Shown: in pieces, positions 21,481-23,360 of the stretch
Numbering within the stretch: position 1 is the stretch's first letter
Layout of the letters: each line of letters opens with the position of its first letter
Notes under the pieces: model-generated
Databases searched by the model: none
Seen by the model: only the letters and a program-made list of their open reading frames with translations
What the model was told of the DNA's origin: nothing
From: a bacterium
GTDB lineage: Bacteria > Verrucomicrobiota > Verrucomicrobiia > Verrucomicrobiales > Akkermansiaceae
Direction of reading: 5' to 3'
DNA length: 64,000 nt
NCBI GenBank assembly: GCA_018222765.1
Contig: JAAEZT010000002.1
Span: 108,111-172,110, forward strand
Translations under genes and position numbers: made by a program

Positions 21481-21528
21481 AAATGTGAGATTGTTTGGAA
21501 ATACGATGTTTTTTGGGTAAATGCAGGC

Positions 21529-21557
21529 TTGACGGGCCGCTCCACTACTCCTAGCGT
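21529..21557 (+). promoter_or_regulatory. putative sigma-70 promoter of rpsU
   Basis: TTGACG at 21529-21534 and TAGCGT at 21552-21557 are separated by 17 bases, 35 bases upstream of the rpsU start codon. The -35 element is good and the -10 element is weak. Confidence 0.4.
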
Positions 21558-21591
21558 CCCGCCCCCAACCGAACCCAGGGGATATTTCCAT

Positions 21592-21834
21592 ATGTCGAAA
21601 CAAATTCGTGGCGTAGACGTCAAAAACGGGGAGACCGTAGATCGCGCTCTCAAAAGACTTAAGACCAAGCTCGATAGCGAAGGTATTCTTGAAGAAATCC
21701 GCCGTCGCCGCTCACACGAGAGCACGATTGATCGTAAGATCCGTAAGGCCCGCACGGCTCCAAAGCGCAATAAAGCCCGTTGGAAATTCCAGAGCGAATC
21801 GCAGACCAAGGCTGCTGAGGCGGCCGCCGAGTAA
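21592..21834 (+). CDS. rpsU: 30S ribosomal protein S21
   Basis: An 80-residue basic protein, starting at ATG 21592 (MSKQIRGVDVKNGETVDRAL), of normal S21 length. The conserved ALKRLKTKLDSEGILEEIRR and RKARTAPKRNKARWKFQ segments are typical of S21, a small-subunit protein that assists initiation by stabilising mRNA contact with the 16S 3' end. The frame extends upstream to 21529, but that part carries the promoter and is not conserved, so the internal ATG is the true start; an AGGGGA lies 12 bases before it. A strong terminator follows. The tail is Ala/Glu-rich (TKAAEAAAE). Confidence 0.95.
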   Translation: MSKQIRGVDVKNGETVDRALKRLKTKLDSEGILEEIRRRRSHESTIDRKIRKARTAPKRNKARWKFQSESQTKAAEAAAE

Positions 21835-21868
21835 AGCGACTGAGAAACTTTTAAAGGGTTCACGATGA

Positions 21869-21907
21869 ACGCTCCGGGATCAATTTCCGGGGCGTTTTTC
21901 ATTTTTT
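21869..21907 (+). terminator. intrinsic terminator after rpsU
   Basis: A 9-bp stem (ACGCTCCGG at 21869-21877 with CCGGGGCGT at 21887-21895, one G-T pair) with a 9-base loop is followed by two T-runs to 21907. It lies 34 bases after the rpsU stop and so separates rpsU from the selenoprotein gene. Confidence 0.85.
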
Positions 21908-21944
21908 ACGGCAAACTTAAGTAAAATAGAGGTATTTTTATCAC

Positions 21945-21972
21945 TTGCACCCTCGCAAAATGCCTCTAGCTT
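21945..21972 (+). promoter_or_regulatory. putative promoter of the selenoprotein gene
   Basis: TTGCAC at 21945-21950 and TAGCTT at 21967-21972 have a 16-base spacer, and the -10 box resembles that of the rpsU promoter. The start codon at 21982 is only 9 bases after the -10 box, which would give an almost leaderless transcript. Tentative. Confidence 0.3.
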
Positions 21973-21981
21973 ACCGCTGTT

Positions 21982-22536
21982 ATGAAACCTACCATCTTAT
22001 TTGGAATGATGTGTGCTTTCGGGGCGTGCGCCGCGCCCGCCCTAGCCGCACCTGCTGAAGCTGCTGACGCGTCTTCAATCTCTGGCTTCTCGGTTTCCTT
22101 CTCAGGAGGGGGATGAGGCGCTGCTGCCAAGGCCAGTTCGGCCTTAAAATCGATTGAAGGTGTAGACAAAGTTCTCCTCTCCGGCACGACTGCGTTCGTC
22201 ACAGTCAAAGGGGAGGCTGCGCTCTCCCGCACTGCCGTCCGAAAAGCATTCGACCCCAAAGGCCTTAAGGTTAAGGGGCTGAAGAAGGCATCAGTTGCAA
22301 AACCCAAGGAAGCTTACCAGCTGGCAATCACTGGAGGCACATGAGCCCAGACCAATGAAAGAGTGCGTGGCACTCTCGAAAAGTTGGACGGTGTCGGTGC
22401 AGCCTTCGTCAACCGCGGTCAAGTCATGTTGCTCATGACCACCGAGGAGACCTTCAACGAAGAAGAGGTTGCCAAGATTTTGAAACGCTATAAATCGACA
22501 GTTAAGTCATCCTCTAAGGTAGCTTCTCCGCTTTAA
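21982..22536 (+). CDS. selenoprotein: exported tandem HMA-like protein with two selenocysteines (in-frame TGA)
   Basis: Reading through two TGA codons (22114-22116 and 22342-22344) gives 184 residues ending at TAA 22534-22536. Residues 1-22 are a signal peptide (MKPTILFGMMCAFGACAAPA). Two homologous beta-alpha-beta-beta-alpha-beta units follow. Unit 1 has strand FSVSFSG, then GGG-U45-GAAAKASSALKSI, EGVDKVLLSG, VTVKGEAALSRTAVRKAF. Unit 2 has YQLAITG, then GGT-U121-AQTNERVRGTLEKL, DGVGAAFVNRG, NEEEVAKILKRY. This is the heavy-metal-associated (HMA) pattern. The TGA sits where the first Cys of the G-M-x-C-x-x-C site lies, and the second Cys is Ala or Thr. Each TGA has its own SECIS-type hairpin downstream. 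TGA is an ordinary stop in neighbours (leuD, aroA), so general code change is excluded. Role inferred: periplasmic metal, metalloid or redox chemistry. SelA, SelB, SelD and tRNA-Sec are not in this window. Alternative: a twice-interrupted pseudogene, less likely. Confidence 0.85.
22129..22145 (+). promoter_or_regulatory. bacterial SECIS element for Sec45
   Basis: AAGGCC (22129-22134) and GGCCTT (22140-22145) form a perfect 6-bp stem with loop AGTTC. The loop G (22136) lies 20 bases after the TGA, inside the 16-37 base range known for bacterial SECIS elements, and is within the first two loop positions as SelB recognition requires. Confidence 0.75.
22360..22376 (+). promoter_or_regulatory. bacterial SECIS element for Sec121
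   Basis: AGAGTGC (22360-22366) and GCACTCT (22370-22376) form a perfect 7-bp stem with loop GTG. The first loop base is G at 22367, 23 bases after the second TGA. The stem sequence is unrelated to that of the first element, so the structure rather than the sequence is conserved. Confidence 0.75.
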
Positions 22537-22560
22537 GCATTTAACAGTATATTTAACCGG

Positions 22561-22600
22561 AAACCCCGATGTGCCCAGCACCTCGGGGTTTTTTGTTTTT
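22561..22600 (+). terminator. intrinsic terminator after the selenoprotein gene
   Basis: AACCCCGA (22562-22569) pairs with TCGGGGTT (22583-22590), with further GTG/CAC pairing inside, and is followed by a T-rich run. It starts 25 bases after the TAA, supporting the idea that the complete frame through both TGA codons is one functional transcription unit. Confidence 0.88.
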
Positions 22601-23360
22601 AACGCAATGCCAGAAAAAGAGTGTGGGTATACCGTTTTGCCTTGGGGTATGCCTTGGCCGGAATTGCCTCCACCTTCGAAAAAACCTGCTTCAGTGATTT
22701 GACGAAGCTTGGATCAGAATGGGCCGACCAATAGACGACCCGCCCTCTGGCGCGAAGAGCCGCTCGGGCGATTTCCAATCCCCGACGTTGATATAGCCGG
22801 GCATTTCCCTTCTGCACCAGCGGATCCGGGCTGTTATCAACGTCGAGCAGGATGACATCATAACGCTCGCCCCCCTGCATAATTTTGAAAACATCCTTCA
22901 ACTGAATGGAAACCCGGGGATCGTCCAACAAGCGTCCGTTGACTTCACCAAGATAGTCACGGTTCCAGTCAATCAACTCCTGCAACAACTCCGCAACCAC
23001 AACCTCGGAATCCTCCGAAACCAGCTCCAAGACCTTTCGGAGCGTGAATCCGAAGCCCAATCCTCCGATGAGGACTCGCTGAGCCTTTTCCGATGACTCG
23101 CAAGCCAGCTCTGCCATGGTCTGCTCGGAAGACGCCGCCGTGGTGCTCATCAAGGGCACTCCACCAATTTTGAGAAAATGGTGACCGTCATGCTCCTGTA
23201 AAACAATGGTTTCACCATCTGGCGAAGTGCTGGTAGCAAGAGTAGTCGTCGGCTTCACGTTCACGAGCAAGCCACGGGTGGCGCGAAAGAAAAAGGACAA
23301 TTCGGAACGATAAAACGGGTTCGACAAATGAAAGGCATTTGTCAGGCTGTCGGTAAGCAT
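22599..23360 (-). CDS. spermidine-synthase-like methyltransferase-fold protein
   Basis: From ATG 23360 the protein has 253 residues. A GTG at 23258 would give 219 residues, and that start lines up with the start of its paralogue at 59795-60487, so the true start is uncertain. The Rossmann glycine loop is RVLIGGLGFGFTLRKVLEL, followed by VVVAELLQELIDWNRDYL and the acidic segment DVILLDVDNSPDPLVQKG, then GRVVYWSAHSDPSF. These are the signatures of the spermine/spermidine synthase superfamily, with an AdoMet- or decarboxylated-AdoMet-binding fold. The N-terminal tetramerisation domain of true SpeE is missing, and the gatekeeper-loop acids differ, so polyamine synthesis is not assured. The start is nearly head to head with the DUF3311 gene. 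Confidence 0.8.
   Translation of the reverse strand: MLTDSLTNAFHLSNPFYRSELSFFFRATRGLLVNVKPTTTLATSTSPDGETIVLQEHDGHHFLKIGGVPLMSTTAASSEQTMAELACESSEKAQRVLIGGLGFGFTLRKVLELVSEDSEVVVAELLQELIDWNRDYLGEVNGRLLDDPRVSIQLKDVFKIMQGGERYDVILLDVDNSPDPLVQKGNARLYQRRGLEIARAALRARGRVVYWSAHSDPSFVKSLKQVFSKVEAIPAKAYPKAKRYTHTLFLALR

Follow-up and report, generated by a model that had tools for sequence, protein, structure and literature searches.

Both in-frame UGA codons of the gene at 21982-22536 are, with high probability, recoded as selenocysteine (Sec) via two SECIS elements, as judged from sequence comparisons between the window (the whole 64,000-nucleotide stretch of DNA analysed) and its relatives. Both would thereby be translated as Sec in a probably exported protein of 184 residues. 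The features on which the argument turns all lie on the forward strand:

21982..22536, forward strand: putative selenoprotein gene, 184 aa with TGA read as Sec and a TAA stop; the frame is open with TGA=U
21982..22065, forward strand: signal-peptide-like N-terminus, residues 1-28, suggested by the sequence and by a low-confidence AlphaFold2 segment at 1-29
22075..22299, forward strand: HMA-like domain 1, about residues 32-106 (AlphaFold2 secondary structure, Pfam HMA at E 6e-5, Foldseek match to tandem HMA domains)
22309..22521, forward strand: HMA-like domain 2, about residues 110-180, a duplicate of domain 1 (AlphaFold2, Foldseek, profile alignment)
22114..22116, forward strand: UGA codon for Sec45, first Cys of the HMA CxxC site (position kept in all full-length homologues; profile alignment to HMA domains)
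22342..22344, forward strand: UGA codon for Sec121, first Cys of the second HMA site (position kept in all full-length homologues; profile alignment)
22129..22145, forward strand: SECIS hairpin 1, AAGGCC-AGTTC-GGCCTT (sequence, covariation)
22360..22376, forward strand: SECIS hairpin 2, AGAGTG-CGTGG-CACTCT; 7 bp with loop GTG when the C-G closing pair is counted
21867..21897, forward strand: terminator-like hairpin of an upstream small S21-like gene, a consensus match that separates this gene from the selenoprotein gene
22562..22594, forward strand: probable terminator-like inverted repeat AACCCCGA...TCGGGGTT then a T run, seen in the sequence 3' of the selenoprotein gene

The gene is a solitary one, flanked by terminator-like hairpins, although the 13-nt loop of the inverted repeat at 22562..22594 exceeds the limit of the terminator scan. 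Rfam gave no match on 21500-22800.

In hairpin 1 the stem AAGGCC (22129-22134) pairs with GGCCTT (22140-22145) around the loop AGTTC (22135-22139), whose G at 22136 lies 20 bases past TGA 22114-22116. In hairpin 2 the stem AGAGTGC (22360-22366) pairs with GCACTCT (22370-22376) around the loop GTG (22367-22369), whose G at 22367 lies 23 bases past TGA 22342-22344. These positions, stems, loops and loop-G distances are exactly those claimed by an earlier, sequence-only reading of the window. Read as a 5-nt loop, CGTGG, on a 6-bp stem, hairpin 2 has the architecture of hairpin 1. The bacterial SECIS (bSECIS) model describes a stem-loop within the coding sequence, 3' of the UGA, with a loop of 3-9 nt, a stem of 4-16 bp and a spacing of 16-37 nt (PMC13188914). 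The loop has G in its first two positions, mostly followed by G or U, and the minimum free energy (MFE) is -7.5 kcal/mol or lower (PMC13188914). Both hairpins agree with this model in stem and loop (6 bp with 5 nt, 7 bp with 3 nt) and in the spacing between UGA and loop (18 nt and 21-22 nt). Folding of the 48 nt after each window UGA, which the earlier reading had proposed as a check, gives -13.6 and -14.1 kcal/mol, with weaker values in a few homologues, down to -4.6. The SECIS elements here are ordinary members of the known kind, alike in all essentials and differing only in being present as two copies per gene at homologous sites of duplicated domains.

Geometry alone is only suggestive, since hairpins of this sort also arise by chance. 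Among all TGAs in the window, a perfect stem of at least 6 bp within the bSECIS spacing and loop rules follows about 2.0% on the forward strand and 2.3% on the reverse strand, and a perfect stem of at least 7 bp follows 0.2-0.4%. Both hairpins arising by chance is unlikely (about 1e-4), yet not impossible, and it is conservation among homologues that settles the question. The chance rate of about 2% is also what might be said for a pseudogene or a sequencing error in which the hairpins are chance inverted repeats. However, the same two TGAs and hairpins recur in 54 distinct proteins drawn from numerous assemblies, and dN/dS stays at 0.10-0.17 along the whole gene; this extremely improbable explanation was rejected as refuted by the homologues.

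Of 195 genomes searched in the host's taxonomic family, 53 gave a match; exactly two in-frame TGAs are present in 50 copies, and one more copy is cut by a contig end. The 54 distinct proteins comprise 50 from the taxonomic family (window copy included) and four from other families of the order, all with both TGAs at corresponding places, 76-77 codons apart in the 50 and 75-76 codons apart in the four. Around the TGAs, the 50 family proteins read SGGGU and GGTU, with some variation. Before, between and after the TGAs, dN/dS is 0.17, 0.13 and 0.10, indicating purifying selection in all three segments, so that the coding sequence is conserved beyond each in-frame UGA as in a selenoprotein gene. 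No Cys or other sense codon was found at either TGA site at family, order, class or phylum level, and a plasmid tblastn gave no match. The usual support from a Cys homologue at the Sec position was therefore not found for this family, although HMA proteins at large have Cys there; such a homologue is customary support for a selenoprotein gene, not an absolute requirement.

Two variations on the family were seen near the Sec sites and the N-terminus. In one homologue (L067; G050:C8:24927-26027) a Cys precedes the second Sec by two residues (VAGCGUSD, giving a CxU motif); no other Cys lies near a Sec in the family. In some members (L067, L071, L074 and L075; G050, G066, G103 and G087) a lipobox-like Cys ends the signal segment, as in LTATSC or VSLFVSC, which suggests that these may be lipoprotein forms.

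The hairpins are conserved too. Counting the first TGA base as 0, the loop starts at +21 at the first TGA and at +24 at the second, in an ungapped register throughout the 50 family proteins. It is 5 nt long with G in second position, NGUNN or in a few NGGNN, at both sites in all 50. The six stem pairs are kept in 285 of 300 cells (95%) for hairpin 1 and 295 of 300 (98%) for hairpin 2, against synonymous-codon nulls of 194 (65%) and 186 (62%). Within-column synonymous-codon shuffles never reached the observed pairing in 2000 trials, and the signal was lost when the partner was slid by one column. Covariation, another check that had been proposed, is present in both stems, with compensatory changes far above the synonymous-codon nulls: pairs are changed on both sides in 47 cells of hairpin 1 and 89 of hairpin 2, counts that are inflated by relatedness and do not represent independent events. 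Several pairs in each stem vary in this way, for example one that is GC in 25 sequences and AU in 21, and one that is CG in 20, GC in 19 and UA in 5. The stronger evidence comes from the synonymous nulls and from families outside the sample: the four other-family homologues, which had no part in defining the stems, pair at 7/7 in both stems. Across the homologues the seventh pair of each stem is weak and only loosely kept, and thus the shared stem core is six pairs. Furthermore, RNAalifold, unaided, proposes the same two helices.

The loops tell a similar story. At site 1 the loop codon for Ser is AGT in 23 of 23 cases, against 11% elsewhere in these genes, and at site 2 it is CGT (Arg) in 47 of 50, against 26% elsewhere, a codon bias by which the loop codon is evidently held at the RNA level. 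Comparison of the homologues, so far as sequences can, shows the TGAs to be kept as coding codons and the hairpins to be under selection as RNA. A covariance model of both hairpins, run against the whole host genome, ranked the two window hairpins first and found no further credible site there, its five weaker hits having no TGA in a plausible reading frame. The model is too specific to find the hairpin of the host's SelD, and thus provides no census of selenoproteins.

Might the stems be kept for some other reason, such as mRNA stability or a regulated termination that gives short forms, with Sec insertion partial or absent? When selenium is scarce, any Sec gene can give chains that stop at a UGA, here at either one. 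Nevertheless, the fixed distance from the UGA, the loop G as in bSECIS, the purifying selection after both UGAs and the co-occurrence with SelB argue against this explanation, which I consider very improbable.

The host genome encodes tRNA-Sec (anticodon tca), SelA, SelB and a SelD with its own in-frame TGA, the machinery expected in the host of a selenoprotein gene. A SelB match was found in 45 of 51 carriers of the double-TGA gene vs 24 of 144 non-carriers. All six carriers without a SelB match have SelA, and four have tRNA-Sec over the cut-off, so these are probably incomplete assemblies. The earlier suggestion that the hairpins strengthen the Sec reading is thus borne out by the conserved register, the covariation beyond codon constraint and the complete Sec machinery. 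An open frame through two TGAs is also what would be seen if UGA were read as an ordinary amino acid, through a code change or a suppressor tRNA, with the hairpins incidental. But TGA is still an ordinary stop, ending 11 of 38 long ORFs in the window, and no sense codon replaces it in any homologue. With tRNA-Sec, SelA, SelB and SelD present and stem covariation exceeding codon constraint, such reassignment was rejected as refuted in effect, and its probability is negligible.

Two other genes of the host, one for a selenoprotein and one for a selenoprotein candidate, deserve mention. SelD (L157 from 362; G000:C60, gene from 58831) is itself a selenoprotein, with the motif SCGG-U-ASK and a hairpin CACGCA-GGTCC-TGCGTG whose loop lies at +35. 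A second HMA-type candidate (L112 1501-1845; G000:C31, from 17873) is 114 aa long and has a single TGA, within GLR-U-ASGC (a UxxxC motif), with the hairpin AAGTGC-AGGCT-GCACTT after it. It has 30 matches in the 195 family genomes, with exactly one TGA in every match, and its best NCBIfam match is NF041115, at 36 bits vs a cut-off of 95.

How did one gene come to have two such hairpins? The earlier reading held that they were independent, with a geometry hard to explain by duplication. The two TGA domains are, however, tandem duplicates (hhalign profile-profile probability 98.4%, E 8.6e-15), their loop codons fall in one alignment position and are homologous, and in many relatives the two hairpins share, exactly or nearly, the sequence AAGGCC-CGUGC-GGCCUU. 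Thus, the shared geometry is largely inherited, with each stem maintained by its own compensatory changes, and an independent origin was rejected on the domain duplication. That the stem sequences are unrelated is correct for the window's clade, but fails in many relatives, where they are nearly identical; the unrelated stems presumably arose in this clade via later compensatory drift. Nor did the idea that the small loops could define a local SelB specificity survive, since they fit the bacterial consensus (PMC13188914) and the host SelD mRNA carries a loop of the same type, GGUCC. An unusual SelB loop specificity was rejected on these grounds.

AlphaFold2 models (8 sequences, mean pLDDT 80) place two beta-alpha-beta-beta-alpha-beta domains, the HMA fold, after a low-confidence signal-like segment. 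Supporting this, Foldseek finds its best matches in ATP7B and B. subtilis CopA, in their tandem HMA domains, and single domains match CopZ with a target-normalised TM of about 0.8. The Pfam HMA profile (PF00403) scores 23.8 bits (E 6e-5), just below its gathering score of 24.8 bits. In place of the HMA metal site GMxCxxC the protein has GGxU: in profile alignments both Secs line up with the first Cys of that motif. At the second Cys position domain 2 usually has Thr, and domain 1 lacks the residue, being shorter by one at that point. Of 50 proteins, 47 are free of Cys throughout the mature core. The protein is thus modelled as a tandem of HMA-like domains of the CopZ/MerP/CopA fold, in which Sec takes the first Cys position of each CxxC and the second Cys is gone, and its N-terminus indicates that it is probably exported.

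Several known proteins resemble it in part. The UxxU metal-binding (seleno)protein NF041115 is also HMA-like with up to two Sec, but it consists of a single 74-position domain in which one UxxU motif holds both Secs, whereas the 184-aa protein has one Sec per domain, 76 residues apart, no UxxU, and a score of 17.2 bits vs a cut-off of 95. The metal-binding double selenoprotein MbdU (NF045648) likewise has two Secs in a putative metal-binding protein (PMC13188914), but has a CU motif, and the 184-aa protein had no match to NF045648 in the NCBIfam scan. MerP, which is periplasmic, CopZ and the N-terminal HMA domains of CopA and ATP7B share the predicted fold, with Sec aligned to the first Cys of their GMxCxxC. 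In contrast to these, the 184-aa protein has two Secs, no CxxC and no core Cys, and it scores only 19.5 bits for MerP (TIGR02052) and 28.3 bits for CopZ (NF047957), vs cut-offs of 92.55 and 85. Sec has been reported in HMA-type metal proteins, namely a cation-transporting ATPase (UxxC) and MerP-type selenoproteins of environmental data (PMC2398784, PMC13188914). These have a single Sec in another architecture, and the ATPase keeps its Cys partner (UxxC). In another family of the phylum, an 830-aa frame with one in-frame TGA (L109; G462:C13:40958-41398) matches the tandem HMA profile weakly and is perhaps a Sec-containing metal-transporting ATPase.

A double-Sec tandem-HMA family is absent from the 119-family selenoprotein table of the 2026 catalogue (PMC13188914). 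The NCBIfam scan found no family for the 184-aa protein, its best scores being far under the cut-offs, and the open-access literature searched contained no family of such description. The protein appears to represent a selenoprotein family, not yet catalogued, among the relatives of Akkermansia.

In the proposed mechanism, SelB with Sec-tRNA would bind a canonical bacterial SECIS hairpin about 18-22 nt past each UGA. Duplication would have given the two tandem ferredoxin-like HMA domains; in each of them one Sec would replace the leading Cys of CxxC and its partner Cys would be missing, with no Cys in the mature core. What, then, might the two Secs do? I infer that their most likely role, held with about even confidence, is to bind soft metal ions in the periplasm as selenolates, either each alone or together as a Se-metal-Se pair, with Hg(II), Cu(I) or Ag(I) as examples of the metal. 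A less likely possibility is that the same selenoprotein, with the same SECIS elements, uses its Secs not as metal ligands but as a redox pair, either an interdomain diselenide or two selenol sites of reductase or peroxidase type. Most known selenoproteins are redox proteins (PMC13188914), and two Secs kept together in every member, over a Cys-free mature core in 47 of 50, would suit such a pair. On the other hand, there is no resolving Cys, and the predicted fold and Sec position match a metal site rather than a thioredoxin-like active site. The gene neighbourhood (about 18 loci) shows no partner common across genera and nothing that favours the metal role. More tentatively, the family, in which all members seen have both Secs and no Cys form occurs, might be a periplasmic tandem HMA protein in which facing Secs form a Se-metal-Se or diselenide centre irreplaceable by sulfur.

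Automated annotation would normally cut the reading frame short at the first TGA, and the family would escape searches for Sec/Cys pairs because no Cys homologue was found. Its recognition adds a double selenoprotein family to the catalogue and would show Sec replacing CxxC in a metallochaperone fold. It also provides a duplicated SECIS that can be traced during divergence under joint RNA and codon constraint. Finally, a role of Sec in metal handling would be directly testable with this small soluble protein.
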